DNA of 64,000 bases from Crambe crambe (Eukaryota; Porifera; Demospongiae; Poecilosclerida; Crambeidae): assembly GCA_963924555.1 (NCBI GenBank), contig OZ004583.1, forward strand, positions 6,958,582 through 7,022,581, in the 5' to 3' direction. Below the pieces are notes generated by a model, which saw nothing but the letters and a program-made list of their open reading frames with translations, searched no databases and was not told the DNA's origin. The translations under genes and the position numbers were made by a program. This document shows positions 4,297 through 51,986 of this stretch, one piece after another. The first letter of the stretch is position 1; the number at the start of each line of letters is the position of its first letter.

Positions 4297-7200
4297 CTAC
4301 TTTGTGAAAACAGGAATCGCATAATTTTCCTCTGATTGAGCAGTAACCTTTTTGGTTTCACTGTGTTCATCAGGTATGCATCTGTGACTGGAAATAACAT
4401 GCTGTCTTCTCTTGGCTTGCAACACAATGTTCTGATAGTTGGTATGATTTTCATGAGAATTTTTCTAGGGAAAGATAAAAAGTGTGTAAGCATATAATGG
4501 CTCCATGGCTATGATGCATTCATGTGTAGACTATTGAATAGTTAGTATAATAACTAACTACCACTGTAGCCTGAAACCTGTAGGAAACCTGATATAGGAT
4601 ACACAAGGGCATGGCAAATTTCCTTATTTCCCATTCAAAATTAATGCCATGTCCTTGTGTATCTTACACTGTTTACTACAAAAAAAACACAACAACATTG
4701 TGTTTCCTTCAGAAAACACAAGGAAGTGTACATAATTATAGTGACTCGAGTGCGGCACAGTCTTATTTTAATGTTTAGCTATCTACAAATTCGAGCTAGT
4801 GTAAACCAGCAACTAAACAACTGAAAAATAATGGTGATGAATATAAGTTTAAAATGATTACTGTGCACATGCAGGAAATACAAATAACCCAACAAACAAG
4901 ATGACATAACCATACAAATACAAATCATGCATTACATAAACCTGCACATACCTCGTGGTCTATATCGGCATAGACTAAATCTTGATCCAAGTTTTCCCCT
5001 TTATCCTTCACTTCTTCCAGTTCAGTGCTCTCAGAGTTTTTGTACCCTTGTAACTGTGACTAAAGTATAACGTGCATGATTTGAAAATATTATATTGGGA
5101 TAGCTTAGCTACTCTGCATTTCCTCACTTGATAGCTATGGCTGTGATTGATATGCATTATACACTCTGCCTACGTATACTAATTAAGGTGATATGCAACA
5201 TTTGAGACAGTGAGCAAGCAAGCAAGTATTCTTTAGTGCTTTAACTCGATTTTGCTGTTGAGTTCATATGTAACAAAGCACTTAGATAAGCCTAGAGCCT
5301 CTACAACTACAACTGTAGCAATGTGCAGCATAATTTTGACAGTGTGAGCAAGTGAGCAATTAAAGTAGTTGATAAGCTCAAGTACTTGATATTCCTGTCA
5401 GAGACAAAATTCATGTTAGTGCCTGGTGGTTTCAACGAGGAAGCTCCATACATAGAAAACTGTAAATATAGGCACTTAAATAAGCCAAGCACCTAGCTAC
5501 AATCCACTTTGCCCCTCTATGACAAAAGGCTGTAGATAACAATATGTGCATTATGCATGTGCAGCACTAAGGACACATACATACCGTACATACGCCTGGG
5601 GCATTTTGGAGTGTAGACATAAATATATTTACAATTCAATGAGTCGTGACCTGAGAGTCAGCTCGCTTGCTCGCTGAACTACATCTTGTGGTTATCATGA
5701 ACCTCTCACAAGTATAACAGCTATACTCTATGCATAACTATAGATTGGAGGCTCAAATTAAGGATTATAGCCACTTTCCACCTTGTAGATGTACTTACAT
5801 GGCATTTATTTTGTCTGTTTTTCTTATGTTTCTTTGAAGAGCAAGCAAAAGCTTTCGCCTTTATGGCCTCTGCAATAGGAAGAACATTCGGCTCATCTCT
5901 CCAATCTGATTGTGTAACTAATCAGCCACTACATATACATACCTAGTTTCAAAAACTCCTCATAGCAGGGGTCACACACCTCTCTCTTACTATTCAAGTA
6001 TGGAAGATAAACTTCGTTTGTGGAACACAGCCTGCAGACTGCCTGCAAAGTTGAGCAACTATTCAACAATGAAAGTGTATAATTATGTGTAAAATTCATT
6101 AATTTTAAATCCAATGAAGATATTTCCCCATTTACGTATCTGTCAGCTATGTACGTATTATATGTTACCAGTAGCATCAGTTCTCACCTTTCCACATGCA
6201 CTGCAGTGCTGACCTCCTGCCAAGAAGATGTTTTCCGATTCACAAATTTGACAATTGTACACGTCTGACATAAAGGTTGGCTTCACACTTCCAAACTCAT
6301 ATCCAGCATCAAGAGTTTGCTGATTGAATAACAAAAATAATTCCACAGAGGAATAACCCATTCATATCATACAAATGATTGATACATAAACGGTACAATA
6401 GCTGCTTCTTTCTTTTATCTCTTGAGATTTCATTCAGAATCTCTTGCTAATTGACAAGTACCTTATTAACAGAATTGTCACATGGTACACATCACATGGT
6501 AATCAAGTACCTTATCAGCAGAGTTGTCACATGGTACACATTGGAAACAATCGAGTCTTGAATACTTTTTCAGGTACACAAAGATGAACGCTGTTGGGAT
6601 GATGGCAAGTGTGAGGGATGTGGATGACAGGGCAAATGCTGAAGTAACTAGAAATTCTCTACTGGATTGCCAGTTCAAATCACATGTATCTGCAGAGGAG
6701 GAGTGACAGTGATAATCAATGTAGTTTGGTATTGAAATGAGGTTGAATAACTATGTACATAGGTCCATCCCAGGCCCAGGCCCATACTTACTTTTTTGTC
6801 TTGCAATATGGACACCAACTACAATCCAAAGAGAGGAGGACACTATGATTGCACAGAGAGCTACTATGAAGAAGATGAATGATAATGTCCGATAAGTTCT
6901 TGATGCTAATACTGGAAGACGAGTATAAAATCAAATATCTTGATCCAAGATCGTAATTATTATTACCTGTGAATTCATGATGCTTCTTGATGTAGAATGC
7001 CATCGTTAACCCACTGTTTATGATGGCAAGGAGCAAGAAAACCAGACCCATAATTAGAAATCTTCCATTGGAGTCAGTGAGACGAAGAGCAACTGCAAGA
7101 AAAATATATAAGGTTGTTATAACTATGTCCTAACTTTAGCATTGCAACATTGCATTAATACATAAGTTCTAGGATTATCCTATAGGGTCGTAAGGTCATG

Positions 7201-10200
7201 CAGCTAAAAGTACGTGTAGCCTTGGGAGAGTAGCTAATTAAATGGTGTATGTGCAGCAAGCACAAAAATACGTAGCCACGTAGTGTGACCTACATATGTT
7301 GCTAATAATTATTATGGTGATCTCTTGCCATACGTATAGCTAACAGCTAGTACGTAGAACACGGTGCATTTGGTTTTCATACATAACATGCATGGAATGG
7401 TCATTAGTGTCTGTACATTTTCCAGTTGTAAAACTCGTCCTTAGCTGGTATAAAGTGGAATTCACCATCAGTCCAGTCTGGAAGTAGTACTGAGTCTCTT
7501 CATCCATTAAGGGTAACAAGGAGGGTGAATTCAGTGATCCATTCAAGATGTCATCAAAATTCTGGTAGGAGGGGTCACGGCCATATTTAATATAGCAGAT
7601 TTCTTCATCGTCCAGGAGGGATGAGCAGAGAAATGTAGTGAAACAGTCTCCAAATGTCAGATTATTATCAAGCACTGTTGGCTGAAGAAAGTGATCTGCA
7701 ATGGAAATAGTAATCAAGTAGCTACATACAGTACAATCATCCCTAAGTAGAGTAGCCTAGCTCTATAAGTTATAGAGTGTATCCATGGGGAATTGGGGGT
7801 TATGCATGGGCATGATCGAGGCTATTGATCTAGTGATGAGATAACCTGATACTAACTACTCTCATGGCCATACACAAGTGCATCACTATAGCTACATAGC
7901 TAGCTAATCATGTCAAGAATGCATGCATCCTCATGATAATTTTAGCCGGGAGCTGCATGCATTGCTTTAGATATGTACTAGTATAATTGTTATAATCTTT
8001 CACCAATATCAATGGATTAGGAGGCAGTATCATTGCCAATGGATTAAGTGGCAGCTGCATTGCATTAAGACATACAGTACATAGCTAGCTAATCTTTTAC
8101 CAATATCGATGGATTGGGTGGCATTAGACTCCCCTAAGGCATTGGCAGCACTTATGCTGACACGATAGCTTTGGATTAAAGAAGAGAAGGAGAAGAAGGA
8201 TGTAGAACAGAGTCCACTTGTGCAGTTGGTGCTGTCAGAACTGATCGTCCTTTGCTCTACTGTTTCATTGGAGTCGCCCTCCAGGACAACCGTGAAGTTG
8301 AGGAATCCTTCAAATGAACACTTCTCAGAAATAGACAGCGGCTAAGAGGAAAATCAGTACAATAGAGAACTATAGAGAATAGCCATTAATTGTGTTCACT
8401 TGGAGTAATATTATTGGGACATGTATACACTACTTTACTTTTCTACTGATATGAATAAAGCCTTATTAAAAAATTAACGCTTTGAAATTAAGGGAGCTAC
8501 GTAGCTATGTACGTAGTTAAGACCCAAGTGAACATTAAGTAGACTTTATTATACGTAGATTGGATACCGCTGCTCTCCATTCCACTTTCAGCTGATTCAG
8601 CTCTGACTCTTCTCCATAAACAGGAAAAACCACAATCTTAATAGCTGCATTAAGAAGTCAGAGAGTATAGCTTCAAAGCTTTATAACATGCAGAGTCTGA
8701 GCTTTAGCAACCTTGTGGGTGGACAGTGAAAGTATCTTTGGTTCCTTCTTGATTTCCACAGTTGATGGCACTGATGGTGAAGGAGTAGTACGTTCCCAAG
8801 ACCAGTCCAGAGTAGTTATAATCCTCACTGGGTCTCACTAGCTGATCACTGGGACATGAGGAAGTGGTGGAGTTTATTACTACATGATATGTAGTAATAT
8901 TGTGATTCAAGGAAAAGGAAGGGGACCACTTCAATAACACTCCAGGATCATCAGGGGGAAGAAAGAGAGAACAGTTGAAAGCAGGTGAAGGGGAAGGATC
9001 TATACACATTTTAAAATTATAATGCTGTTATCTAATAGCTATAGCTATAGCTAATATACCTTTGAAATTGAAATTAAGTTCAATGGTATTACTTTTGGTG
9101 CCTGCGCTCCCACATGTGACATTTTCCCCTCCTAATTCTCTGACTGCAGAAAGATTAGTTGTTAAAGTTGATTGAAAATTTCCTCTATCATGATTATTAT
9201 CATTGTAGGAGGCCTCCACTATCTGAATCATCACCACATCTCTCCAGGGGGATGACATAGTGGTTATGGTATGATCCTTAGGAAACTGATGGTTTGAGTC
9301 ATATGGATAAGAAGCTATTATGTCATCATTGATGAACCATCTCAGTGTTGTGGATGGTATGTCCACAGCAGTGCAGTTAAATGTTACTTGAGGACAAACT
9401 CCGGCCAATAAAGTGACATTTGACATCAACTTAGGAGAAGCTGGGGGAAAATGATGTATAGATACTGATAGAGCTGCACACTGATATGGAGTGTGTACTT
9501 ACCTCTAACAAGTTTTGAAATCAGCATCGTCATTCCTAAAATCACTATGGAGAAGGACCTCTTTTGAAGGAATAAATAACATGATAACTAAAAAGATAAC
9601 TATCTTTGCAATATAGTAAACTAATAAGTTGTGAAAGTATGAAGCTAAGAGACTTTTAATTGATTATGAAATAAACTTTGGGAATCCAGTAGGCAATAAT
9701 ATCTACATAGAGAATCATTATATCAAAGTAAATACTTTTAGCTAATTACTGGTGTAATGAACTTTGGGATTTCAGAATCTGCTTTGATCCATCAATGATT
9801 CATGATTACATAGAGAATCATTGTATGATGTGTAAGGTAAAGCGGGGCTATTTCGAACGGCGGGTAATTCCGTATTGTTCAAATATTTCTGAAACTACTC
9901 GGGCTTCTGAGCTCAATGTTGGAGGATATAATTTACCATAATAGTAGAATATACCTTTCAAAATAGAGCTCATAAGCTCGAGGAGTTTTGAAAATATTTG
10001 ACCCTACGGAATAGCCCCACCGTTCGAAATAGCCCCGCTTTACCTTACCAACATGTCAAGGCCATCCAAGTGAATAGTATAAGCTATAAATAATGTTGAG
10101 GAATTGGGTTCTGATTCATGATAATAACCAGTGTCTAGCTACATAGCTAGCTATATACATAGCTAGTAGTAATCAAAGAGCTACTGGCCAATAGACACAT

Positions 10201-10357
10201 AGCTCTTAATCTGCCATACCTCCTGACCTGGAACACTCCTATAATTATTAACAACTACGTATCAGCTAATCCTCTGTAATCATCAATAATTTATACATCT
10301 CGCTATTATTTTCATGAAAGTGTTTATACCTACACAACTTACTTTATTCAGTAGCAT
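4297..10357 (-). CDS. A1: Ig/FN3 receptor with three TM helices, FYVE-type finger and ITIM-like tail
   Basis: Fifteen-exon model, 5' to 3' on minus: 10343-10357 (MLLNK), 9503-9560, 9060-9440 (Ig), 8712-8999 (FN3), 8568-8644 and 8101-8341 (second FN3), 7417-7695 (juxtamembrane), 6967-7092 (TM1), 6792-6905 (TM2), 6511-6689 (TM3), 6188-6319 and 5943-6042 (zinc finger), 5799-5917, 4952-5059, 4297-4464. The lengths sum to 795 codons (794 aa) and every junction keeps phase. TM1 and TM3 end in IKK and LKK, so the N-out/C-in topology puts the zinc finger in the cytosol. The tail holds GYKNS, LVYADI (an ITIM match) and NYAIPV. The intron 5918-5942 would be only 25 nt. In intron 1 a TA-flanked MITE (9835-10045) is absent from A2. 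Roles in adhesion or recognition are inferred, not shown. Confidence 0.8.
4465..5798 (-). other. Large introns of A1 with dispersed repeats
   Basis: Intron 4465-4951 contains a small hairpin (4598-4663) that is also present in A2 at 20604-20664. Intron 5060-5798 contains, between about 5200 and 5690, sequence that recurs in reverse orientation in the element at 31916-32499, including runs of GAGCAAGCAAGC and GCTCGCTTGCTCGC. No coding exon other than 4952-5059 was recognised here. Confidence 0.5.
4598..4663. repeat. Short hairpin repeat, also at 20604-20664
   Basis: Inverted arms begin GATACACAAGG and end CCTTGTGTATC, with ATGGC/GCCAT extending the stem. It is conserved in both copies of the tandem duplication, so it pre-dates it. 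It sits in the last intron of A1 (and A2). Confidence 0.6.
5943..6319 (-). other. FYVE-type zinc finger exons of A1
   Basis: Two exons (6188-6319 and 5943-6042) encode four Cys pairs: CQIC, HCSACG, CRLC and CDPC. Spacing is CX2C-X12-CX2C-X4-CX2C-X16-CX2C, which is the FYVE arrangement, and the last pair lies in REVCDPCYEE, like the conserved FYVE C-terminus. The PI3P-binding basic patch R(R/K)HHCR is replaced by GGQHCSACG, and the N-terminal WxxD motif is not evident. Zinc binding is therefore likely but PI3P binding is doubtful. The finger follows the third TM helix after a Cys-containing linker (CFQCVPC). Confidence 0.75.
9835..10045. mobile_element. TA-flanked MITE (211 bp) in A1 intron 1
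   Basis: Terminal inverted repeats of about 26 bp start AGGTAAAGCGGGGCTATTTC, and the right end is the complementary sequence. TA dinucleotides flank both sides (9833-9834 and 10046-10047). The paralogous intron of A2 (near 25525) lacks it and shows an apparently intact site. TA duplication plus simple TIRs fits a Tc1/mariner-type non-autonomous element. It inserted after the tandem duplication, or was lost from copy 2. Confidence 0.8.
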
Positions 10358-16017: not shown

Positions 16018-18751
16018 CTATCTCCATGTTTTCCAAATGGACAGACCATTTGTACTGACAGGGTTTTTTGGTCTTGTCAGAGGAAAAGCAGCAATAGAGT
16101 CCTCTTCACAGTCATCTAGTCTCAGCTCATCTCCTAAGCTCTGTGAATGATCCAATGCCTCACTAGAGATCCTCCGTGGTGAGCCACCACTTCCACCTCT
16201 GCTGTCATTATTGTCCATGGAAATATCAGTGATTTCGGAAGTGTCTGATGGAGTCATCATGGCATTTGCTGTATCACATGATCCACTGTTAGTATTCTCT
16301 GGAGTCATGTGTCTCGTGAATACATTAGCCAAAGATGTTCTATTTCCATTTTGTGATGGTGGGCTTGCTGCTAGAGCTTGTACATTTTTTGGTTGGTGGA
16401 CTTTTTTGAATTTATGAAGGGCACCACTTTATTCCTGGACCTGATGGAATATCAAAACAATAATACAGCCACACTTAGTTACTCATGTATACAGTGGAAC
16501 CATCCCTTCAAGGAAAGGACAACCTCCCAACAAAGGATGCTCTTTTGGGCCTTTCTAGTACATTTTAACCTCCAAGAAAAAAGGACAACTTCTCTGAAAA
16601 GGACAAAGTAGCTGACCCCAAAGTGTCCTTTAACTACTTGGAGGTTCAACTATAATTATTAGTATTCCCCAATATCTCATCCCAGATATATTGGTAAAGG
16701 GTCATGACTGTGTCCAATATCTATTAAGGCTCTTGAGAGCTGTTTGTTACATTATACTCCACCCACAAAACTAATCCAATTCTCTTGCCTAACAAAACTA
16801 GATGATGGCTGATAGAGTATACATAGCTATATAGTTGTGACAGAAATCGAACTTTATTCACACTTTCTACTTTTGAAAAAAAAAGTTCGAATCAGCCATG
16901 ACAAAAGTAAACTTTAACTATAATGTTTGATTTCTACCCTCGACTGTCACAGTTGCTAATGAATGATTTGGAGCCAATAATAAATTATTGGAGGACTTAC
17001 AACTGTTTATACTTGTGAACTCTGAAGACGACCAGGAACACAATAGCCACGATGACTTCTATAGAGAGCAAGACTATGCACACAGAAGCCAAAATCATCC
17101 AGCCACTAAGATTAGTGATAGTTAGAGGAGGGGTGAGCGTGTTCCTCACCACAGCTCCTATGATTTCCTTGTCCTGTTCCACTATGCAATCGAGAGTGAG
17201 TTTGGGGACGACATAATTGGTGGCTCTGTTTGGCAATCGGCTGGCATCCTCAGGAAGCCTGACATAGAACCGGAACTGAAGTGTTAAGGTTGATGTGACA
17301 TGGCATCAGATGGGTTGATTTCTGTGGTGTAGTTAGGAAGGATTATTATGTATGGTTGGCATAGTTGTTGGTCTCGTCAGTGCTTCGTCTTCGTCTGGTG
17401 AGTGAGGATGTCACACTGTGAATAGAGAATTAGAGTTACCATTATCCAACACTGACTTGCACATGTAGCTAATAATTATGTGATGTATTATTCTTACGTA
17501 CCCAAAGAAATGGGCACATCCAGATATGAGTGAACAAGTTTCAGGAAAAATTGCACAGTGACTGGTCACACTTCGAGCAACAGCTTCACTGAAGTTTATT
17601 TGAGCTTTACTGCTTCCATCCCACTGAAAAATAGCAAAAAAAGTAATAATTTGGCTATAGTATTTACTTAAAATTACTTACTATTGATTTTGATACATCC
17701 TTCAGTTGTATCCTAATAGAGTTCTTAAGACCTTCTGCTTCCACCAAATACAGGTACTTGCTAGGGCTCTGATCAAAATCCCCTGATATTTGAAGAGGAA
17801 GTGCCCGAAGATCCACAATGACCAATAGGGTGATGGAGAGGGAGGGACTTCCCGAGTCGCTCACTATAATCGGAAGACGATATGCCACAGGATCCTCGGG
17901 ATTCAGCAAGCTAGTAAGCTGCAGTTCCCCAGTGTTACTGTCCAATGAAAACAAGTTATTTAGTTCTCCCAAACTGTAGCGTAATAGTGAATTAAAATCA
18001 ATATCTCTGTCAGTACATTCAGCATTGCTGAATATGACCAGCAGGAGGTCTGGTTTCAGGTGATAGGTGAATGTGGAAGACAGTTCTGTTGCACATGGGC
18101 CAGTTATCATTATCATCTTGAACTCTTATCACAATTTGCATGCTACTAGAACGAACTAGGGATCGGTCCACTGGGTTATCTTGAGCTGTAACTATCAGTG
18201 TGAGAGTCTCGAGATGCTCTCTATCCAATTCTCGCATGAGGAAGATTTCGCCGGTAATGTGATTGATGAGAGCTGTGTTGGGTTCTTGTATGGTATAAAC
18301 AACATCTCCATCTCTCCTCGATCGCTATCCAAGGCTTGAATGACACCAAGCAAAACACTCTCAGAAATATTAAAGATGTAAGAAGTTTGTCTAAATATCG
18401 GTGAATGCTCATTGATTGGTAGTATGGACACATGCACACTCAGATCAGCATGGACCATCCGTGAATGATTAGGATCAAAGCATCGCACATGTAGATGAGA
18501 AGTCGACTGCTCATTGTCAGGAGGATGTTGTACGGTGATCTCTCCAGATAAAGCATCTACTTGGAATACATCTGATCGTTCTATTTGGGGAGGATGCCAT
18601 TAGTTGTTCTATTATGGAGTCCAATTGAATGTTGTCAGGAATCATGAAGGTGTAGCTTTGATGAGGAAAACAAGGATATTCTGAGCAGGAGACATCACAT
18701 GTTGCAAGGATAGACTGAACTACAGTATAATAAGAAAGGGAGAATGAGTCA
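16018..18751 (-). pseudogene. Decayed cadherin copy (internal deletion and frameshifts)
   Basis: Homologous to the intact cadherin at 39448-45102. Tail exon (16018 upward), TM exon (about 16999-17415), a short exon near 17520-17625 and part of the big ectodomain exon (17690-18751) remain. At about 18585 the sequence jumps from the penultimate part of the ectodomain to the N-terminus, so about 2.87 kb encoding most cadherin repeats is missing. The breakpoints match about 42056 and 44929 in the intact gene and share a few bases (ATT). Further small deletions (for example 11 bp in the tail exon, 7 and 9 bp in the TM exon) break the frame. Homology ends a few bases upstream of the start codon at the duplication junction, so this copy also lost its promoter. 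Not expected to make a functional protein. Confidence 0.85.
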
Positions 18752-20267: not shown

Positions 20268-23200
20268 CTACTTTGTGAAAACAGGAGTCGCATAATTTTC
20301 CTCTGATTGAGCAGTAACCTTTTTTGTTTCACTGCGTTCATCAGGTATGCACCTGTGACTGGAAATGACATGCTGTCCTCTCTTGGCTTGCAACACAATG
20401 TTCTGATAGCTGGTACCATGATTTTCATGAGAATTTTTCTAGGGGAAGATAAAAAGTGTATACGTAAGATGTATAAGCATATAATATAATGTCTCCATGG
20501 CTATGATGCATTCATGTAGACTAATGAATAGTTAGTATAATAGCTAACTACCACTATGAGATATCCTAGCCTGAAACCTGTAGGAAACCTGATAATATTA
20601 TAGGATACACAAGGGCATGGCAAATTTCCTTATTTCAAAAATTAATGCTGTGCCCTTGTGTATCTTACACTGTTTGCTACAAAAAAAAATATAATAATTA
20701 TTGTGTTTCCTTCAGAAAATGTACATAATTATAGTGACTCGAGTATGGCATAGTCTTATTGTACTATAGTATTTGGCTAACTACAAACTCGAGCTAGTGT
20801 AAACGAGCAACTAAACAACTGAAAAGTAATGGTGATGAATATAAGTTTAAAATGATTACCGTGCGCATGCAGGAAATACAAATAACCCAACGAACAAGAT
20901 GACATAACAAATCATGCATTACATAAACCTATCTCTACACTTATTATATGCACATACCTCGTGGTCTATATCGGCATAGATTATATCTTGATCCAAGTTT
21001 TCCCCTTTATCCTTCATTTCTTCCAGTTCAATGCTCTCAGAATTCTTGTACCCTTGTAACTGTGACTAATGTATAATGTGCATGATTTTAATAGCTTACT
21101 CTGCATTTCCTCACTTGATAGCTATGGCTGATACACTCTACCTATGCAACATTTGTGACAGTGAGCAAGCAAGCAAGTATTCTTCAGTGCTTCAACTCTT
21201 TAGAAGGTTTTGCTGTTGAATTTATATGTAACAAAGCACTTAGATAACCCTAAAGCCTCTACAACTACTACTATAGCAATGTGCAGCATTTGATAGTGAG
21301 CAAGTGAGCAATTAATGTAGCCAGTTCTTGATATTCCTGTCAGAGACAAGAGTCATAGTGCCTGGTGGTTTCAACCAGGAAGCTCCATTGTAAATACAGG
21401 AACTTAAACAAGCCAAGCACCTACAATCCACTTTGCCCCTCAGGTATAACAGCTATATTCTATACATAACTATAGATTAGAGGCTCAAATTAAGGGTTAT
21501 CGCTACTTTTCACCTTGTGCATGTACTTACATGACATTTATTTTGTCTGTTATTCTTATGTTTCTTTGAAGAACGAGCGAAAGCTTTTGACTTTATGACC
21601 TCTGCAATAGGAAGAACATTCGGCTCATCTCCCCAATCTGATTGTGTAACTAATCGGCCACTATCACTGTAAAAACAAAAGTGTTTACTGCACACCATTT
21701 TGTCCCAATGCACACACTGTTTTTGTTTTTGGTGTGTGTATTGGGACAATTTAGTGTGCAGTGCACACTTTCATTTTTACAGTGTACATACATACCTAGT
21801 TTCTCAAACTCCTCGTAGCAGGGGTCACACACCTCTCTCTTACTATTCAAGTATGGAAGATAAACTTCGTTTGTGGAACACAGCCTGCAGACTGCCTGCA
21901 AAGTCGAGCGATTATTCAACCCATGAAAGTGTGAATCTTATACATATATTTTTAAAAAAATTTATTAAATCCACAAAGATATTTCCCCACTTACGTATCA
22001 GTCATGCAGCTATGTATTATGTTACCAGCAGCATCAGTTCTCACCTTTCCACATGCACTGCAGTGCTGACCTCCTGCCAAGAAGATGTTTTTGGATTCAC
22101 AAATTTGACATTTGTACACGTCTGATACAAAGGTTGGCTTCACACTTCCAAACTCATATCGAGCATCAAGAGTTTGCTGATTGAATAACAAAAATAATTC
22201 CACAGAGGAATAACCCATTCATATCATACAAATGATTGATACATAAATGGTATAATAGCTTTTATCTCTTGAGATTTCATTCAGAATCTCTTGCTAATTG
22301 ACAAGTACCTTATTAACAGAATCGTCAGATGGTACACATCACATGGTAATCAAGTACCTTATCAGCAGAGTCGTCACATGGTACACATTGGAAACAATTG
22401 AGTCTTGAATACTTTTTCAGGTACACAAAGATGAACGCTGTTGGGATGATGGCAAGTGTGAGGGATGTGGATGACAGGGCAAATGCTGAAATAACTAGAA
22501 ATTCTCTACTAGATTGCCAGTTCAAGTCACATGTATCTGCAGAGGAGGAGTGACAGTGATAATCAATGTAGTTTGGTATTGAAATGAGGTTGAATAACTA
22601 TGTACATAGGTCCATCCCAGGCCCAGGCCCATACTTACTTTTTTGTCTTGCAATATGGACACCAGCTACAATCCAAAGAGAGGAGGACACTATGATTGCA
22701 CAGAGAGCTACTATGAAGAAGATGAATGATAATGTCCGATAAGTTCTTGATGCTAATACTGGAAGACGAGTATAGAATCAAATATCTTGATCCAAGATTG
22801 TTACCTGTGAATTCATGATGCTTCTTGATGTAGAATGCCATCGTTAACCCACTGTTTATGATGGCAAGGAGCAAGAAAACCAGACCCATAATTAGAAATC
22901 TTCCATTGGAGTCAGTGAGATGAAGAGCAACTGCAAGAAAAAAATATAAGGTTGTTATAACTATATGTCCTAACTTTAGCATTGCAACATTGCATTAATA
23001 CATAAGTTCTAGGATTATCCTATAGGGTCGTAAGGTCATGCAGCTAAAAGTACGTGTAGCCTTGGGAGAGTAGCTAATTAAATGGTGTATGTGCAGCAAG
23101 CACAAAAATACGTAGCCACGTAGTGTGACCTACATATGTTGCTAATAATTATTATGGTGATCTCTTGCCATACGTATAGCTAACAGCTAGTACGTACGTA

Positions 23201-25850
23201 GAACACGGTGCATTTTGATTTTCATACATAACATGCATGGAATGGTCATTAGTGTCTGTACATTTTCCAGTTGTAAAACTCGTCCTTAGCTGATATAAAG
23301 TAGAATTCACCATCAGTCCAGTCTGGAAGTAGTACTGAGTCTCTTCATCCATTAAGGGTAACAAGGAGGGTGAATTCAGTGATCCATTCAAGATGTCATC
23401 AAAATTCTGGTAGGAGGGGTCACGGCCATATTTAATATAGCAGATTTCTTCATCGTCCAGGAGGGATGAGCAGAGAAATGTAGTGAAACAGTCTCCAAAT
23501 GTCAGATTATTATCAAGCATTGTTGGCTGAAGAAAGTGATCTGCAATGGAAATAGCAATCAAGTATGTAGCTACATACAGTACAATCATCCTAGCCTAGC
23601 TATGTGTATAAGTTATAGAGTGCATCCATGGGGAATTGGGGATTATAGGCATGATCGAGGCTATTAATCTAGTGATGAAATAACCTACTCTCATGGCTAG
23701 CTAATCATTATCATGAATGCATGCATCCTCATAATAATTTTAGCTGGGAGCTGCATGCATTGCTTTAGATATGTACAAGTATAATAGTTATAATCTTTCA
23801 CCAATGTCAATGGATTAAGTGGCAGCTGCATTGCATTAAGACATACAGTACATAGCTAGCTAATCTTTTACCAATATCGATGGATTGGGTGGCATTAGAC
23901 TCCCCTAAGGCATTGGCAGCACTTATGCTGACACGATAGCTTTGGATTAAAGAAGAGAAGGAAAAGAAGGATGTAGAACAGAGTCCATTTGTGCAGTTGG
24001 TACTGTCAGAACCGATCATCCTTTGCTCTACTGTTCCATTGGAGTCGCCCTCCAGGACAACCGTGAAGTTGAGGAATCCTTCAAATGAACACTTCTCAGA
24101 AATAGACAGCGGCTAAGAGGAAAATCAGTATAATAGAGAACTATAGAGAATAGCCTTGGAGAATATAATTATTGGGACATGTATACATTTCTACTTATGA
24201 ATAAAGCCTTATAAAAAAATTAACGCTTTGAAATTAAGGGAGTTAGCTATGTATGTAGTTAACATAAATATATTATAGTAAATTGGATACCGCTGCTCTC
24301 CATTCCACTTTCAGCTGACTCAGCTCTGACTCTTCTCCATAAACAGGAAAAACCACAATCTGAATAGCTGCATTAAGAAGTAGCTTCAATGCTTTATAAC
24401 ATGCAGAGCCTTAAATCCATTGAGCTAGCTATAATAAATTATAGCAATTAACCTTGTGGGTGAACAGTGAAGGTATCTCTGGTTCCTTCTTGATCCCCAC
24501 AGTTGATGGCATTGACGGTGAAGGAGTAGTGTGTCCCAAGGACCAGTCCAGAACAGTTATAATCATCACTGGGACTCACCAACTGGTTACTGGGACATGA
24601 GGAGGGGGTGGGGCTGGCTACTACATGATACGTAGTAATATTGTGATTCAAGGAAAAGGAAGGAGACCACTTCAATAACACTCCAGGATTATCAGGGGGA
24701 AGAAAGAGGGAACAGTTGAAAGCAGGTGAAGGGGAAGGACCTACATATTTATAATGCTGTTATCTAGTAGCTGGCTACAGTTATATAGCTATACCTTTGA
24801 AATTGAAATTAAATTCAATGGTATTACTTTTGGTGCCTGTGCTCCCACATGTGATATTTTCCCCTCCTAATTCTCTGACTGCAGAAAGATTAGCCGTTAA
24901 AGTTGATTGAAAATTTCCTCTATCACGACTGTTATTACTGAAGGAAGCATTCACTATCTGAATCATCACCACATCTCTCCAGGGGGGTGACGCAATGTTA
25001 TCATCATAAGGAAACTGATGGCTTGGGTCATATGGATAAGAAGCTATTATGTCATCATTGATGAACCATCTCAGTGTTGTGGATGGTATATCCACAACAG
25101 TGCAGTTAAATGTTACTTGAGGACAAACTCCAGGCAATAAAGTGACATTTGACGTCAACTTAGGAGAAGCTGGGGGGAAATGATGTATAGCTACTGATAG
25201 AGCTGCACACTGATATAGAGTGTGTACTTACCTCTAACAAGTTTCGAAATCAGCATCGTCATTCCTAAAATCACCATGGAGAAAGACTTCTTTTGAAGGA
25301 ATAAACAACATGATAACTAAAAAGATAACTATCATTGCAATAGAGTAAACTAATAAGTTGTGAAAGTATGAAGCTAGGAGATTTTTAATTGCCTATGAAA
25401 TAAACTTTGGGAATTCAGTTGGCAATAGAGAATCATTAAGCTATAGTAATTACTGGTGTAATAAACTTTGGGAATTTAGAATCTGCTTTGATCCACCAAT
25501 GTTTCACATCTAGATAGATGTACCAACATGTCAAGCCCATCCAAATGATAAATATCTACATAGATAATAGTCACAGATGCTAGCTATATACATACGTAGC
25601 TAGCTAGTAATCAAAGAGCTAGCTAGCTACCATTTCTAATTGATGCACAACCCTAATTTAAGGTTCTGGCCAATAGGCACATAAATTTTCGCATATTAAT
25701 CTGCCATACCTCCTGACCTGGAAGTATTTTTTCCTGGCTCTTTATTCAATCTAATATTGACACTCCTATTATTAACAACTATCAGTTATAAATCTCGCTA
25801 TTATTTTTATGAAAGTGTTTATCTACACAACTTACTTTATTGAGTAGCAT
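20268..25850 (-). CDS. A2: Ig/FN3 receptor with three TM helices, FYVE-type finger and ITIM-like tail
   Basis: Duplicate of A1. Exons: 25836-25850, 25232-25289, 24795-25169 (Ig), 24453-24740 (FN3), 24291-24367 and 23872-24112 (second FN3), 23262-23540 (juxtamembrane), 22805-22930 (TM1), 22639-22752 (TM2), 22358-22536 (TM3), 22045-22176 and 21796-21895 (zinc finger), 21531-21649, 20958-21065, 20268-20438. The sum is 794 codons (793 aa), fully in frame. Signal 1-24, Ig 25-149, FN3 150-245 and 246-351, juxtamembrane 352-444, TMs about 456-479, 493-518 and 536-560, Cys pairs at 607/610, 623/626, 631/634 and 651/654. The tail has GYKNS and Y731 in IIYADI (an ITIM match). Both copies being intact while the junction copies of G1 and cadherin died suggests selection on A. 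The intron 21650-21795 is mostly MITE. Confidence 0.82.
21665..21784. mobile_element. CACTG-end MITE (120 bp) filling an A2 intron
   Basis: Begins CACTGTAAAAAC and ends GTTTTTACAGTG-like (TTTTTACAGTG). The interior is a near-palindrome built on GTGTGTATTGGGACAA. It lies inside the intron between the second zinc-finger exon and the next exon. The corresponding A1 intron has no insert and is only 25 nt. A sister copy is at 38981-39099 in the opposite orientation. Confidence 0.75.
21796..22176 (-). other. FYVE-type zinc finger exons of A2
   Basis: Exons 22045-22176 and 21796-21895. Same CX2C-X12-CX2C-X4-CX2C-X16-CX2C frame as A1, with conservative changes (YKCQICESKN here, YNCQICESEN in A1). 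All eight Cys are retained in both copies, consistent with constraint on the metal site. The basic patch of classical FYVE domains is missing here too. Confidence 0.75.
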
Positions 25851-32556: not shown

Positions 32557-32931
32557 TGTGATGGACTCATTGACAGTTTGTATGTGTGTAAGTGTGAGTT
32601 AAAATTATTATTCTGTAGTGTGGTTTAATTAGTTGTGCATGTCTAAACCTGTTCTGTATTCTGCTGTCCTGTCATCTGTGTGGTTGTAATTTGTGTGCGA
32701 GAATTTTCCTGTTTTTCTGTATCAATGCGTGTTTTTTCATGTTAGTTGAGTTTTGTATAAAAGTAGAGTTCTAGAGTTTGTTTTTTGAGAGTTGTTTCAG
32801 AGTTTTAGAGAGTTTTAGTGAGAGAGTTTTTTCTAGCTAGTTGAGTTTTGTTAGCCCTTTGATTAAAATAGTTACTAATCTGATTCTGGGTAGTCTAGAT
32901 CTCTAGTTGGTAGCATACTCGGTCTACTACA
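32557..32931 (+). repeat. 5' LTR (375 bp)
   Basis: Begins TGTGATGGACTCATTGACAG and ends GGTCTACTACA. It contains a TATA-like TATAAAAG at about 32756-32763 that could be the promoter. It has one extra 10-bp GAGTTTTAGA-type unit compared with the 3' LTR. Confidence 0.95.
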
Positions 32932-32933
32932 CT

Positions 32934-32951
32934 TGGTGGCAGCGGTGGGAT
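32934..32951 (+). promoter_or_regulatory. Primer binding site, tRNA-Leu type
   Basis: The 18-mer TGGTGGCAGCGGTGGGAT starts 2 bp after the 5' LTR. Its complement equals the 3' end of a metazoan leucine tRNA (CCCACCGCTGCCA plus CCA). It would prime minus-strand synthesis. Confidence 0.8.
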
Positions 32952-33005
32952 ACATCGACGACTAGTTTGGGTCAGGATCCCGCAAAAGAAAGTCTACGAG
33001 ATTGG

Positions 33006-36000
33006 ATGACTACAAGACCAGGAAGAGGCTACAGACCAGAGACAATGGCAAACGAAGAAACTGGATCGATGGACATGGCTCAGATGGTACGAGTCCTGCT
33101 GGAGGATCGGCAGAAGCGTGACCAAGAGCTAGCTGAACAACGCAGGCTCAGAGAAGAGGAAAATGCTAAACGCGAGGAGGAGATTCGCGAAGAACGCCGA
33201 CGACGTGAGGAAGAGACGGCTAAACGTGAGGAGGAGATCCGTGAAGAACGTCGAAGACGTGACGAAGAAGCGGTTAAGCGGGAAGAAGAGGCTCGAATGC
33301 AAATGGAGCTACTTCGAGGTCTTCTAGAAGGAGTGCAGAGACAAGGAGAAGCCGCAATGACAAGAGCTGAGCGGGAAAAGGACGTCAAACTTACGAAATT
33401 GACAGAAGATGACGATATCGAGGCGTACCTTACGACCTTCGAGAGGTTAATGAGGGCCTACGAAGTGCCTGAAGTACGCTGGGCTTTCAAACTCGCCCCA
33501 CAGTTGGTGGGAAAAGCTCAGCGAGCATATGCTGCTCTAGCTGTAGCTGATGCTGGTGACTACAAGAGAGTCAAAGCTGCAATATTGAAACGTTACGACA
33601 TAACAGATGATAGTTATCGTCGAAGATTTCGAGCTGCGGCACTGAAGCCAAAGGAAACGTACAAAGAGTTACATGTGAGAATGGAGGACCTGGTAACAAA
33701 GTGGCTGAAGACGTATGAGACTGTAGAGAAGATCAAGGATCAGATCATTCTCGAGCAACTTTTGAATACCTTTGCTGAAGACACCCGAGTGTTCGTGAAA
33801 GAGCGGAAACCAAGAACAAGTGAGGAAGCATGTAAACTAGCAGATGATTTCATGACTGCAAGAGAAGAACTTAAGAAGGAGAGAGGCCGGGAGAGTGACA
33901 AGAAGCCTCAAGGAGACAGGCAATCTATTCGATGCAACAAATGTAAGAAACTGGGACACATTGCACGAGACTGTCGACAGATGCCTAATGGAAAGCCAGA
34001 GGTAAAGAAAGAGAGAGAAGATGCTGAGAAATCCCTGAAGCCGAAACGAGATCTGAAGGATATCGAGTGTTACAATTGTCATCAAAAGGGCCATTATTCA
34101 TCCAACTGCCCGAAGAATGCTCTGTTTTGTCATGATCCGCTCAATCGGAGAAAGATCTTGCAGACTTGTCTGGAGAAAGCTGGATCTGTTGAAGGGAAGC
34201 AGGCTGACAACATCCTACTGGATACTGGCTGTGGCAGATCCATGGTTCGAAAGGACCTAGTACCAGAAGAGAAAATTTTGGAGGGGGAAGCCGTTGCTAT
34301 ACGATGTGCTCATGGTGATACTGTCCTTTATCCTTTAGCACAGGTTGAAGTCACTGTGGATGACCAGACCATTGGGATCAAAGCAGCTGTAGCTGGTTCT
34401 CTACCCATGGACGTTTTGCTGGGGACAGATGTACCTGAGTTGGGAGAACTACTGGGACTTAATCTACAGCCATCCAATGTCCTCGCTACTACTACCCGTT
34501 CACAGGCAAAGAAGCAGATGGAGCAAGAGCTGGACTTACAACAGAAGGATGAACTCTCTGGAGCCAAGCTAACTAGTTTGGGAGCCGCCTGCGATGCAGA
34601 AGAGGAGCCATTTCAAAACTTGGACGACGAGCTCTTTGGAACCAGTCGAGAGAAGGTGTACCAAACTCGGAGCAAGAAGAGACATGACAGACACAAGCAC
34701 TGGGAACCTGGTCAGGAGCCTGAAGCAGAGCAACTGGAGGAAGAATTGATACCCCATGCTATGGATATAGCTACTGGTGAGATGAAAATTTTACAAGAGT
34801 CTGATACCTCTCTAGATACAGTGAGAGAGGCGGCCAAGAACCAACCATGTGGATCTGGAGTAGGATTTTTTGAGAGAGACGGACTACTCTATCGTCGGTG
34901 GATTCCAGCAGGCCGAGACAAAGAATGTATGGCAGTGGATCAACTGGTGGTTCCAACACAGTGTAGGAAAACTATACTTAATCTTGCTCACAGCATTCCC
35001 CTTTCAGGACACCTGGGAAAGGAGAAAACCACCAGACGGATCCTTCAACGTTTCTACTGGCCCACCCTCTACCGAGATGTAGCAGAATATTGTCGATCCT
35101 GTGGAGCTTGCCAGAAGACATCACATCGCCGACCACCGAAGGCACCGCTAGTCCCTCTACCTATCATCGATGAACCGTTTAGTCGGATTGCAATGGACAT
35201 TGTTGGTCCGTTACCAAGAAGTCGATCTGGAAACAAGTACGTTTTAGTGCTATGTGACTATGCCACACGGTACCCTGAGGCCATTCCTTTGAAAAGCATT
35301 GATGCTAGTCATGTGGCCGAGGAATTGGTAAAGCTATTTGCCAGGGTTGGAATCCCGGAGGAGATACTGACGGATCAGGGGACAAACTTCACCTCGCAAC
35401 TCTTGACAGAAATCTACCACCTACTGCATATCCACCCCATCCGGACCACCCCCTATCATCCGCAGACGGACGGATTAGTGGAGCGCTTTAACCAAACTCT
35501 CAAAGGAATGCTCCGGAAAGCAGCAGTGAAAGAGGGTAAAGATTGGGATAAACTTATTCCTTATTTACTTTTTGCATACAGGGAAGTCCCTCAATCTTCA
35601 ACTGGTTTCTCACCTTTCGAACTCCTATATGGCCGGACAGTCCGAGGACCACTAGACATTCTCCGAGAATCATGGGTAGCGGATAAGAAGAGCGATGAGA
35701 GTGTGGTATCTCATGTACTTGCAATACGGGAGAAGATGGAGAAAATGACAGAGATCGTGAAGGAGAAGCTCACTTCATCCCAACGTGTGCAGAAGCAATG
35801 GTATGATCGAAATTCCAGGGACCGGACATTTGATCCAGGTGACCAGGTTCTAATTCTACTACCAACTTCAAGCAATAAGTTGCTGGCCCAATGGCAAGGT
35901 CCCTACGAGATAATCAAGAAGATGGGGAAAGTTGACTACATGGTCAAGCTTCATGACAGAAGAAAGAAATTCAAGGTTTATCATGTCAACATGTTACGAA

Positions 36001-37499
36001 AATGGCATGTTCCAATTGCTACAGCTTGTTACTCTGAAGAGCTATCAGAGGATCATGAGGATATACCTACTTGGGAGGAGATCAATCCAGTTGGGGTTGG
36101 CAATGTCAAACTGGGGGAGAAGTTAACTGACAAACAAGCAGAGCAGATACAGAAGCTGCTAGGAGAGTACTCAAGAGTATTTCAGGCTAAACCTGGATGT
36201 ACACACCTTGCAGAACATCATATCCGAACAAAAGATGCAGTTCCAATCAAACTCCCACCATATCGTCTCCCACATGCTTATCGCGAAACCGTGAAAACTG
36301 AACTAGACGAGATGTTGAAGGATGGCATCATAGAACCCTCTCGAAGTGAATGGAGTTTTCCACTTGTAATCGTGAAGAAGTCAGATGGATCATTGAGACT
36401 CTGTGTGGATTACAGACGACTTAACCAGATATCTGAATTTGATGCATATCCAATGCCCAGAGTTGAGGATATAATCGATCGAATAGGAAGATCCCAGTTT
36501 ATCTCTACCATGGACCTGACTAGAGGATATTGGCAGGTGCCTGTGGCTGTGGAGGACAAGCCGAAAACTGCTTTTGTGACTCCTTTTGGGCTCTTTCAGT
36601 ACAACGTGATGCCATTTGGATTGAAGGGAGCTCCAGCGACCTTTCAAAGGTTAATGGATCAAGTGCTACATGGACTGGAGTTTGCAGGAGTCTACATTGA
36701 CGATCTGATTATATTCAGTGAAACTTTGGAAGAACACCTCACCCATCTCAAGACCGTATTGGACAAGCTCAAAGAAGCTGGGCTCACTGCCAAAGCGACG
36801 AAGTGTACATTTGGTGCTTCACACTGTACGTATCTTGGACATATTGTTGGAAGCGGATTCGTAAAACCAATCGAATCGAAGACAGCAGCTATTGAATCTT
36901 TCAAAGTCCCTCAAACGAAGAAAGACCTCCGAACATTTCTGGGAATGGCGGGTTACTATCGGCGTTTCATTCATGACTATTCAGCGATAGCAGCACCCCT
37001 CACTGATCTGACAAAGAAATCTCAGCCAAGCAAAATTTCCTGGACTCCAGAATGCGACACAGCATTCAAAGAGCTAAAGAAGCTCCTTTCTTCATCTCCT
37101 ATCCTGAGAAGTCCAGACTTCAACACACCCTTCGTGCTACAGACAGATGCATCTGATCTTGGGATCGGGGCAGTATTGAGTCAGAAAACTGGGAATGGAG
37201 AAGAGCACCCAGTTGCCTATTGGAGCAGGAAACTTCTACCTCGGGAAAGGCGTTACTCTACCATCGAGAAAGAGTGCTTAGCAATCAAGTTAGCCGTACA
37301 AGCCTTCCAAGTGTATTTATTGGGAAAACCGTTTACCATTGAAACTGACCATCATGCATTGGTCTGGATGGACAGACTAAAGACTTCGAACAATCGTTTG
37401 GCTCGATGGAGCATTGCACTCCAACCCTTTGATTTCACAGTAGTACACAGATCTGGCAAGAAAAATGCCAATGCTGATTCGCTAACCCGTATGCAATAA
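33006..37499 (+). CDS. Retrotransposon Gag-PR-IN-RT-RNaseH polyprotein
   Basis: Single uninterrupted frame. The open frame extends back into the LTR, so the first Met after the PBS (33006; alternative 33045) is the likelier start, giving about 1,497 aa. In order: coiled-coil of REEEIREERRRR repeats; Gag core; two CCHC knuckles (starting about 33933 and 34068: CNKCKKLGHIARDC and CYNCHQKGHYSSNC); aspartic protease LLDTG (34221); integrase zinc region HSIPLSGHLG...CRSCGAC (34989 on); integrase catalytic D (35196), D (35373), E (35481), with exactly 35 residues between the last two; GPY/F module (QGPYEI); reverse transcriptase with YIDD (36693); RNase H with QTDAS (37146) and ETDHH. All catalytic residues are present, so the element may be active. 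Confidence 0.95.
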   Translation: MTTRPGRGYRPETMANEETGSMDMAQMVRVLLEDRQKRDQELAEQRRLREEENAKREEEIREERRRREEETAKREEEIREERRRRDEEAVKREEEARMQMELLRGLLEGVQRQGEAAMTRAEREKDVKLTKLTEDDDIEAYLTTFERLMRAYEVPEVRWAFKLAPQLVGKAQRAYAALAVADAGDYKRVKAAILKRYDITDDSYRRRFRAAALKPKETYKELHVRMEDLVTKWLKTYETVEKIKDQIILEQLLNTFAEDTRVFVKERKPRTSEEACKLADDFMTAREELKKERGRESDKKPQGDRQSIRCNKCKKLGHIARDCRQMPNGKPEVKKEREDAEKSLKPKRDLKDIECYNCHQKGHYSSNCPKNALFCHDPLNRRKILQTCLEKAGSVEGKQADNILLDTGCGRSMVRKDLVPEEKILEGEAVAIRCAHGDTVLYPLAQVEVTVDDQTIGIKAAVAGSLPMDVLLGTDVPELGELLGLNLQPSNVLATTTRSQAKKQMEQELDLQQKDELSGAKLTSLGAACDAEEEPFQNLDDELFGTSREKVYQTRSKKRHDRHKHWEPGQEPEAEQLEEELIPHAMDIATGEMKILQESDTSLDTVREAAKNQPCGSGVGFFERDGLLYRRWIPAGRDKECMAVDQLVVPTQCRKTILNLAHSIPLSGHLGKEKTTRRILQRFYWPTLYRDVAEYCRSCGACQKTSHRRPPKAPLVPLPIIDEPFSRIAMDIVGPLPRSRSGNKYVLVLCDYATRYPEAIPLKSIDASHVAEELVKLFARVGIPEEILTDQGTNFTSQLLTEIYHLLHIHPIRTTPYHPQTDGLVERFNQTLKGMLRKAAVKEGKDWDKLIPYLLFAYREVPQSSTGFSPFELLYGRTVRGPLDILRESWVADKKSDESVVSHVLAIREKMEKMTEIVKEKLTSSQRVQKQWYDRNSRDRTFDPGDQVLILLPTSSNKLLAQWQGPYEIIKKMGKVDYMVKLHDRRKKFKVYHVNMLRKWHVPIATACYSEELSEDHEDIPTWEEINPVGVGNVKLGEKLTDKQAEQIQKLLGEYSRVFQAKPGCTHLAEHHIRTKDAVPIKLPPYRLPHAYRETVKTELDEMLKDGIIEPSRSEWSFPLVIVKKSDGSLRLCVDYRRLNQISEFDAYPMPRVEDIIDRIGRSQFISTMDLTRGYWQVPVAVEDKPKTAFVTPFGLFQYNVMPFGLKGAPATFQRLMDQVLHGLEFAGVYIDDLIIFSETLEEHLTHLKTVLDKLKEAGLTAKATKCTFGASHCTYLGHIVGSGFVKPIESKTAAIESFKVPQTKKDLRTFLGMAGYYRRFIHDYSAIAAPLTDLTKKSQPSKISWTPECDTAFKELKKLLSSSPILRSPDFNTPFVLQTDASDLGIGAVLSQKTGNGEEHPVAYWSRKLLPRERRYSTIEKECLAIKLAVQAFQVYLLGKPFTIETDHHALVWMDRLKTSNNRLARWSIALQPFDFTVVHRSGKKNANADSLTRMQ

Positions 37500-45102: not shown

Positions 45103-46321
45103 AATAGCTAGTATATTATAGCTAGCTACATACATTTAATAGTGACTGCATGGTACAGCTAAGTATGGACTGTCAATGATTATTACATTTGTCTGAGTCA
45201 TGTGCATACATAGGTGACTAATAACATTGTGAATATTATGAATTCAGTGTCAGCCATGAAGTCTCCAGCTTGGTTTTAATGATATTCATACACAGAGTGT
45301 TGATCATAACTTCATTCATAGTTAATTGCTCCAAGTGCTGGCTATAGCATAGCTAGCTAGATACGAACCAAAGTGGTTACATGCAGGCCACTGAAGGTTG
45401 TTTCAAAAGTCTTTGACATGATTCAATGGCACTTAGTACTATGTGCCTATGTTTATAGCTGGGAACTAAGAACATGAACACTTACTGTTTATAATAAAGA
45501 AGAGAGTCCATAAAATAAAACCATTCAGAGCAGTAGCCATTACTCTCTCATTCCACCATCATCTGATGAGCAAGATAATAAATGGTTTGAAGCATTAGCT
45601 TACTGCTATGTAGCTAATTTTGGTAAGTAGCTATCACCATCAAGTAATTCTTCCCTCAGACTTCTCACCCCCTCTGATTCTAGCTAACTAGCAAGACATC
45701 AAAAAGTCTACTGAGGACAGGTGAAAATAATGTATGGTAAGCTGCTAGCTAAAGCTGATGCACAAAAAAAAAACAACGAACAACTACACAGTTATACCTA
45801 CCAGGTAAGGCACAAATTCGATAACTACATGTACATATTAGTAATGTAGTAGCTAGCTACAGTAACTAAACACTAGCTATTATACTCATTGATGTTTTAT
45901 TAATGAAGTTGGCTTGTAGTTACCCGCGCGCGCATAGGGCTTAGCACCGGTAAAGGACGTTTATTCATAAATAGCACCAACGATCTTTTCCTAATCTAAG
46001 CAGCCAAATCCTTATAACAACAAACAACATAAAAATTTCTCTATACAATTAATGTTCTGAAAACATATGAGAGTTTGTCTTCTCTATAGTGATTGGTCGA
46101 GCCTCCCTAAATCAGAAGAAACAATAATAAAACTGAGATATCAGTATTATGTGGCTACAGCAGAAATTTTCAATTTTATATTCTAGCTCATTGACTTTCA
46201 CAGTTCAAAATGGGAATTAGCTAACTAACACCATACAGAACTGTGGGGTGGTTCCTCAAGGTTTGTGGGATTCATTGCATAGAAAAAAACAGGGTATCTT
46301 AATGTTTAGCTGATTCTATAC
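45103..46321. other. Spacer between cadherin start and D4 stop
   Basis: No exon recognised. From about 45930 to 46210 it resembles the 3' flanks of the other D-type loci (about 50020-50350, 51870-52130, 59920-60160). Shared landmarks are TTTTCCTAA, TTTCTC(C)ATGCAA-like words, CTAAATCAGAAGAA and CTTTCACAGTTC. It is probably old 3' UTR/flank of the D family. Confidence 0.45.
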
Positions 46322-51176: not shown

Positions 51177-51986
51177 CTTCATGTTTTAAAATATCAACTA
51201 ACTGCATGCACTCTTGGAACTGTCTATGGAGCTTATTTTATGTCAATATTCAATGGTAGAATTCAGTGGTATATTTCTATGATTTTTCTATCCTACATTC
51301 AATACTACATTCTATCCTGTTACTTCTATCCTATTATTTCTATCCTGCATGTTACTTTTATCCTTACTTCTATCCTGCATTTAATACTTCTATCCTGCAT
51401 TAAATGTTACTTCTTTCCTGTATCTAATGTTACTTCTATCCTGCATTCAATGTTACTTCTATCCTGCATTCAATGTTATTACTACTTTCCTGTATTCAAT
51501 GTTACTTCTATCCTGCATTCTATTCAATGCAAGTATGCACTGAATATAGTTGCCGGGACAATGGCCCACACCAAAGCCACTCTCTGGTCAGGTCAACGGG
51601 AGCTCGAGATATACGTACGTCATGTCAATAGCTAGCTAGCGGGCATAGTTAATAATACGCATGCGCATACGTTCGTTTGACCTTTGACCCCACAAATGCC
51701 ATAGCACTTGGAACAAACAGCTAGAGCTTATTGTTTTCTACAGCATTTTGTCATAGAGGCGCTAAGTGGATTGTAGGCGCTTGGCTTTCTAAGTGCTTGT
51801 GGTAAGCATTATACAGCCTCCTATGTATGCAGCTGCAATATCTTAGTAAAGTCAAAGTACAAATGACTTTCCTTTCCTAAACTAAGCATACAATAATTAC
51901 AAAACCAGCAATTTTAATACATAAAAAGTTTCTCCATGCAAATGGTCTGTAAACTTATAACTAATGAGTGATAGTTTGTCCTTTGC
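51177..51986. other. Spacer with minisatellite and dispersed repeat
   Basis: No exon recognised. 51284-51533 is a minisatellite. About 51610-51865 is a diverged copy of the dispersed repeat found at 13690-13980 and 29970-30250, and 51870-51986 is D5 3' flank. Confidence 0.55.
51284..51533. repeat. Minisatellite, period about 23-24 bp
   Basis: Degenerate repeats of TTCTATCCTGCATTCAATGT (roughly ten units). The open frame across it on plus merely reflects the repeat. Confidence 0.8.

Follow-up and report, generated by a model that had tools for sequence, protein, structure and literature searches.

Can a cell-surface receptor carry a FYVE zinc finger, and would such a finger still serve as a sensor of phosphatidylinositol 3-phosphate (PI3P)? 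FYVE domains are textbook endosome-targeting modules and occur mostly in peripheral proteins. The question is raised by two tandem genes, A1 and A2, of the sponge Crambe crambe, which lie at positions 6958582-7022581 of contig C5 in a 143-Mb assembly of 119 contigs. We refer to this 64,000-nucleotide stretch as the window; minus-strand coordinates below are window positions. An earlier reading of the letters alone (the sequence-only reading) had proposed that both genes run in frame from a signal peptide through immunoglobulin-like (Ig) and fibronectin type III (FN3) domains and three helices into an eight-cysteine FYVE finger, and that the product couples surface recognition to endosomal sorting. 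We find that the observation holds and that its extent is larger than was described. At the level of sequence we can show, for the predicted genes, one open frame with conserved splice phases, FYVE identity of the finger and, in eight fingers, zinc ligands that are kept alongside lipid-binding motifs (WxxD and R(R/K)HHCR) that are lost. We give a probability of about 0.58 to the reading that these genes form a family of cell-surface-type receptors in which the finger now serves as a scaffold close to the membrane or as a modified reader of lipids, and not as a classical PI3P sensor.

The receptor finger is a FYVE domain

The cysteines of the A1 finger are arranged as C-x2-C-x12-C-x2-C-x4-C-x2-C-x16-C-x2-C and are split by a phase-0 intron between two exons (6319-6188 and 6042-5943), here called F1 and F2. 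This two-exon pattern, with a splice donor after CGK, occurs twice in the window, in A1 and A2, and in none of 60 simulated windows with the same first-order base transitions, which rules out a chance origin. Searching the window with the pattern yielded no further finger besides a look-alike of the second half at 51396 on the plus strand that has no first half. The other three-helix receptors of the window (near 48, 55 and 62 kb) likewise have no adjoining finger by this pattern.

Nine finger-bearing receptors, A1 and A2 included, span approximately 0.3 Mb. Eight of them were read at the finger (A1, A2, L030, L034, L037, L039, L052 and L053), and the ninth, at 6.747 Mb, is placed from match positions only. 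The curated cut-off of the FYVE profile PF01363 is 27.8 bits. A 723-residue A1 model, which omits exon 1, part of exon 2 and the last exon, matches the profile with 35.7 bits (E 9.6e-9), and the isolated joined fingers of A1 and A2 score 42.0 and 41.2 bits. All eight receptor fingers exceed the cut-off, with scores from 31.3 (L053) to 47.2 bits (L052), and all eight hold the zinc-ligand cysteines in four CxxC pairs. No rival Pfam family rises above its own cut-off on any of these fingers; the nearest families below cut-off are FYVE_2 (A2, E 0.00085), the PhnA zinc ribbon (L053, E 0.0058) and a RING model (L034, E 0.013). The profile scores thus rule out a RING, PHD, zinc-ribbon or FYVE_2 identity.

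Solved structures give the same ranking. The best single-sequence match of the A1 finger in the PDB is the FYVE domain of ZFYVE16 (E 1.1e-9). A profile built from the eight receptor fingers finds RUFY1, FGD5, ZFYVE16, Hrs, Vps27 and EEA1 first, from E 2.3e-12 down, and reaches non-FYVE zinc fingers only from E 8.6e-5. By profile, the receptor finger is a FYVE domain, as the sequence-only reading had supposed; in the search FYVE stands above its cut-off and no competing zinc family is preferred.

Two classical lipid-binding motifs are missing

Classical FYVE domains carry the motifs WxxD, R(R/K)HHCR and R(V/I)C (PMC3017826). The N-terminal WxxD is absent from all eight receptor fingers (FMSD stands in its place in A1), and so is the central R(R/K)HHCR (GGQHCS in A1). 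At the C-terminal motif, RVC is found in three (L037, L039 and L053), KVC in another three, and EVC in A1 and A2. Seven other fingers were read on C5 for which no receptor part of their own was detected; five of these have (R/K)RHHCR (L032, L033a, L033b, L035 and L041) and four have WxxD, with neither motif present in L033c and L038x. The net charge of the core is -2 in A1, -1 in A2 and +3 to +7 in the other six receptor fingers, compared with +4 to +7 in the five local (R/K)RHHCR fingers and +4 to +8 in a set of six RRHHCR-type fingers used for comparison. Because the ranges of the groups overlap, charge alone does not separate them, and it is the motif that does.

The basic PI3P patch was already reported as missing from A1 and A2 in the sequence-only reading, and its absence is borne out here across the eight receptor fingers. 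Since WxxD and R(R/K)HHCR are lost in every one, classical recruitment by PI3P to endosomes appears less likely than that reading proposed. In a variant of its proposal, the finger would still bind PI3P weakly and gain avidity through receptor clustering, and the receptor would thereby sense that it has reached early endosomes before signalling or being sorted. The retained FYVE profile and zinc ligands are consistent with this idea, as are the hydrophobic residues left in the loop before the third cysteine pair (IFL, SII, SFL), the RVC of three fingers and the net basic core of six of the eight; a membrane-proximal position would also reduce the affinity required. We nonetheless judge a PI3P sensor of this kind to be unlikely, given the absence of both motifs from all eight fingers and a core charge in A1 and A2 well apart from that of the six RRHHCR-type fingers.

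Gene models and the probable joining of receptor to finger

On the minus strand, 10357..4297, A1 assembles from 15 exons; their junctions are GT-AG, their phases agree and a single stop ends the frame, which encodes 781 amino acids. A putative signal peptide is followed by an Ig-like domain, an FN3 domain, a second FN3-like domain on a pair of exons and a fourth ectodomain unit (D4); of the remaining exons, three encode the helices, two the finger and three the tail. A2 is a tandem copy with the identical layout. The exons of A1 and the corresponding features of A2, all on the minus strand, are as follows.

10343..10357, minus: A1 exon 1, MLLNK, putative start of the signal peptide; ATG and donor GTAAGT, with MLLNK also in A2 (25850-25836)
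9503..9560, minus: A1 exon 2, putative remainder of the signal peptide; hydrophobic in-frame stretch by eye
9060..9440, minus: A1 Ig-like exon; C..W..C by eye, Ig_3 at 14.8 bits, short of its cut-off of 30
8712..8999, minus: A1 FN3 domain exon; PF00041 at 31.3 bits, cut-off 25
8568..8644, minus: A1 second FN3-like domain, first exon of the pair; homologous in cluster relatives, without a Pfam match
8101..8341, minus: A1 second FN3-like domain, second exon of the pair; homologous in cluster relatives, without a Pfam match
7417..7695, minus: A1 fourth ectodomain unit (D4), membrane-proximal; 112 genome matches, without a Pfam match
6967..7092, minus: A1 helix 1 exon, by hydropathy
6792..6911, minus: A1 helix 2 exon, by hydropathy
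6511..6689, minus: A1 helix 3 exon with phase-0 end, by hydropathy and gene model
6188..6319, minus: A1 F1 exon, first half of the FYVE finger, phase 0-0 with terminal CGK; PF01363 match of the 723-residue model (E 9.6e-9)
5943..6042, minus: A1 F2 exon, second half of the FYVE finger, phase 0-1; same PF01363 match
5799..5905, minus: A1 polybasic tail exon (KKHKKNRQNK), frame shared with A2
4952..5059, minus: A1 tail exon with LVYADI, resembling an immunoreceptor tyrosine-based inhibition motif (ITIM); IIYADI in A2
4297..4431, minus: A1 last exon and stop; A2 equivalent at 20402-20268
20268..25850, minus: A2 whole gene, 15 exons, 779 amino acids, tandem copy of A1
22045..22176, minus: A2 FYVE finger, first half; PF01363 at 41.2 bits for the joined finger
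21796..21895, minus: A2 FYVE finger, second half; same joined-finger match

Exon assembly reproduced the coordinates, the reading frame and the finger spacing (12, 4, 16) that had been claimed for both genes. The acceptor of A1 exon 2 is weak, and we treat exon 1, this acceptor and the signal peptide as putative. Intron 1 of A1 also contains, at window positions 9832-10048, an element of about 217 bp resembling a miniature inverted-repeat transposable element, with an 80% match to its own reverse complement and gtaaggtaaagcggggctatttcgaacgg at both ends.

The splice layout of the finger is the same wherever it was read: in all eight cases F1 has phase 0-0 and ends in CGK, and F2 has phase 0-1. 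The helix 3 exon ends in phase 0 in each of the seven genes for which both parts were read (A1, A2, L030, L034, L037, L039 and L052; L034 by eye), and in these seven the gap from helix 3 to F1 measures 181-886 bp. For L053 only the F1 and F2 sequence was obtained, which leaves its helix 3 outside the comparison, and L030 has two possible F1 acceptors. In L034, L037 and L039 an in-frame TAG immediately precedes F1, an exon that itself contains no Met, so that the finger must be spliced to some upstream exon. The simplest reading is that this exon is that of helix 3. Taken together, the kept splice phases in eight finger genes and the stops before the finger in three argue for the joining of receptor and finger.

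A different arrangement would have receptor and finger as two neighbouring genes, or as alternative transcripts, with the finger exons derived from small FYVE genes downstream of each receptor. For some finger pairs of the cluster, L033 and L035 among them, no receptor helix was detected, and 3.8 kb separate helix 3 from F1 in the unread ninth gene. In A1 and A2, moreover, an in-frame ATG lies 14 codons upstream of F1 and formally allows for a short transcript separate from that of the receptor. A separate start could also come from a small exon that escaped detection within the 593-886 bp preceding F1 in L034, L037 and L039. However, the last three genes allow no start codon between the stop that precedes F1 and the finger, and phase 0 stands at both the helix 3 end and the F1 start in seven of seven cases, over distances of less than 1 kb. 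We consider this arrangement highly improbable.

Ectodomain, topology and tail

The receptor frame described in the sequence-only reading stood in part. The single frame, an FN3 domain by profile and three hydrophobic helices after the ectodomain by hydropathy were all recovered, whereas the Ig assignment is sub-threshold and the signal peptide, MLLNKRSFSIVILGMTMLISKLVRA in A1, was recognized by eye and falls below the hydropathy threshold that was used for the helices. The designation "Ig" in A1 is based on the by-eye cysteine and tryptophan pattern together with the Ig_3 match listed above; among six window members, three match Ig_3 at E <= 0.5, the best at E 0.032. PF00041 is above cut-off for the first FN3 exon only, and the second FN3-like exon pair and D4 have no Pfam match at E <= 0.1.

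The 431-residue ectodomain of A1 contains 15 N-glycosylation sequons and the part past helix 3 contains none (737-residue model without the last exon). This split, together with the hydropathy helices and the single frame, supports a receptor topology in which the ectodomain would lie outside and the finger inside the membrane. The finger of A1 is predicted to lie approximately 43 residues inside the membrane, with YSRL directly after helix 3. The ITIM consensus is (S/I/V/L)xYxx(I/V/L), and by sequence both LVYADI in the A1 tail and IIYADI in that of A2 conform to it. Past F2 in L030, L034, L037 and L039, open stretches were listed to which no tail exon could be assigned.

Selection on the finger and its origin

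A1 and A2 are young duplicates, with introns 80-100% identical across the 12 compared. The sequence-only reading had stressed that all eight cysteines are kept in both; this is indeed seen, although it is weak evidence in view of the intron identity. The dN/dS between the two fingers, 0.65 (p 0.5), is uninformative, and for both reasons conservation between A1 and A2 was dismissed as evidence for the finger.

The six cluster fingers, only 39-48% identical to that of A1, are more instructive. Compared with each of them, the A1 finger has a dN of 0.47-0.54, and synonymous changes have reached or nearly reached saturation (one-sided Fisher p <= 1.4e-5 in all six comparisons); 22 columns are invariant in all eight fingers. 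Among close pairs, dN/dS exceeds 1 for L030/L034 (1.66) and L030/L052 (1.29), such that parts of the finger may be relaxed or adapting, and the L037 and L039 fingers differ by three replacement and no silent changes. The comparisons indicate that the zinc core is held and that the remaining positions move fast.

Could the finger be a decaying relic, retained merely through recent duplication? Erosion of the PI3P motifs, the small divergence of A1 from A2 and the ratios above 1 between some close members are compatible with decay, as are a receptor for which no F2 of its own was found (L038) and 2 of 12 type-A cluster receptors without a finger match. A relic would not be expected to hold its eight cysteines and the invariant columns in eight of eight fingers at such low identity, or to show constrained replacement changes between A1 and the cluster where synonymous sites are saturated. 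Decay is therefore, in our estimation, a very unlikely explanation.

In a tree of 20 fingers (200 bootstrap trees), the cluster's six receptor fingers make up a single clade (99/96), which the local finger L033c adjoins (89/90), and A1 and A2 are placed elsewhere on a long branch. Receptor and local fingers together are set apart from the rest at 55/76. The best tree does not unite all eight receptor fingers, and they form one group in 8% of bootstrap trees; the fusion may thus have arisen more than once. Either one fusion followed by divergence or two fusions would be possible, as would capture of the receptor finger from a neighbouring RRHHCR-type finger.

A possible role for the finger

If the finger is indeed kept as a scaffold or altered lipid reader, a plausible sequence of events can be proposed. 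Helices that already anchor the protein would free the finger from the need for high-affinity PI3P binding, and selection on affinity may then have lapsed. The fold could have been retained as a membrane-proximal scaffold, acting as a dimeriser or partner recruiter beneath the activated receptor. Alternatively, the finger might read another acidic lipid, as is listed for protrudin. The finger and tail would in turn steer internalisation and signalling after recognition by the ectodomain.

Several observations weigh against this interpretation. The six receptor fingers other than A1 and A2 are still net basic, and we infer the loss of PI3P binding from the motifs. The elevated ratios of the close pairs, the scarcity of bootstrap trees that unite the eight fingers, the upstream ATG of A1 and A2 and the room for a small exon in L034, L037 and L039 belong here as well. 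Our confidence is slightly reduced by two of these points, the failure of the receptor fingers to form a single clade and the net basic charge that most of them retain.

A large receptor array

Searching the genome with the A1 D4 unit gave 112 matches at E <= 0.01; 110 of these fall within 6.6-8.15 Mb of C5 and the other 2 on C9, which makes A1 part of a very large receptor array. Members of this array have either one helix (by eye) or three, and some carry a finger whereas others do not. Twelve D4 matches reach at least 56% identity, and these lie in C5 6.63-6.99 Mb, with A1 and A2 among them. By match positions, nine of the twelve are followed by F1 and F2 in order, one by F1 only (L038) and two by neither (6.638 and 6.668 Mb); counts of fingers after receptors obtained in this way are lower bounds. 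For the gene at 6.638 Mb, no finger exon is present in the 4.3 kb read downstream. The 8.08-8.15 Mb part of the array has 19 D4 matches, none with an F1 or F2 match, and in the 2 kb read at one of its members (L051) the exon that comes after helix 3 is already that of the next Ig-like domain, with no finger pattern between them.

At locus L038 (1055-16; C5 at approximately 6.834 Mb), no F2 belonging to the receptor F1 was found. A second finger (RNNCRACGK, VVCKKC..) comes after this F1, and by phase either first half could join the same F2. At C5 6.709-6.783 Mb, L033, L032 and L035 hold finger exons of the RRHHCR or KRHHCR type with no Met before the finger in the open frame; these are probably internal exons. 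One might suppose that the array uses FYVE fingers as interchangeable cytoplasmic cassettes, and that alternative splicing could toggle a receptor between an endosome-sensing and a PI3P-blind form. The idea draws on the phase-compatible halves in L038, where the receptor F1 ends and the F2 of the second finger starts in phase 0, and on the RRHHCR-type exons of L033, which have no start codon and sit at least 9 kb downstream of a receptor. We regard such toggling as decidedly unlikely.

Relation to known systems

The nearest precedent is protrudin (ZFYVE27), which like A1 and A2 combines membrane helices and a FYVE finger in one protein. Protrudin is not known to have an Ig/FN3 ectodomain or a signal peptide, nor to be an arrayed receptor. 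It also differs in being resident in the endoplasmic reticulum, and its FYVE structure (1x4u) matches the receptor-finger profile weakly (E 0.029). Among human transmembrane proteins that read membranes, protrudin is the only one listed as carrying a FYVE domain, its lipids being phosphatidylinositol bisphosphate (PIP2) and trisphosphate (PIP3) (PMC9692390). Its membrane segments number three in PMC7645621 and four in PMC9692390.

Canonical FYVE proteins (ZFYVE16/endofin, FGD5, RUFY1, EEA1, Hrs and Vps27) share the eight-ligand finger with A1; the basic HHC motif is present in the four that were aligned, whereas the receptor fingers have lost it. The canonical endosomal proteins are soluble. 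Another parallel is the class V variant FYVE domain of Arabidopsis, in which WxxD and the central motif are altered as in the receptor fingers (PMC3017826). Its central motif, (K/R)(R/K)HNCY, is still basic according to the same source, whereas the corresponding motif of the receptor fingers is mostly without basic residues and the gene encodes membrane helices.

In the open-licence literature searched, nothing was found on a FYVE-bearing Ig/FN3 receptor, a FYVE-bearing cell-surface receptor or a FYVE-bearing sponge receptor. Arrayed recognition receptors of colonial animals, such as the Alr type of Hydractinia, may be comparable: they too are Ig-like transmembrane proteins that are encoded in tandem, change fast and bear tyrosine motifs. 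They span the membrane with one helix and are not known to include a FYVE domain. If our reading of the sponge genes is correct, they would represent a second use of the FYVE fold, in which the zinc core is kept and the lipid signature discarded across several genes, and would offer a natural set of variants with which to explore functions of FYVE domains other than PI3P binding. The locus is also a large arrayed set of Ig-like receptors in a sponge, where molecules for the recognition of self and non-self or of microbes are of interest.

Other fingers and neighbouring sequences

A different FYVE-like finger occurs at four places on contig C1 (including L047, 641-5005 on the minus strand, and L048), near the N-terminus of long frames of 407 to 1454 amino acids. 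The L047 finger scores 27.0 bits against the Pfam cut-off of 27.8, and its frame has no other domain at E <= 0.01.

Within the window, positions 32907-37499 on the plus strand hold a single frame of 1530 amino acids of the long terminal repeat retrotransposon type, in which CCHC knuckles, protease, integrase and reverse transcriptase can be recognized by eye. The integrase precedes the reverse transcriptase, an order that we take to be that of Gmr1-like Gypsy elements. On the minus strand, positions 41113-45135 contain a long intronless frame of 1340 amino acids that by eye resembles cadherin repeats, and pieces at approximately 16018-18599 and 39448-40888 resemble copies of parts of this frame.

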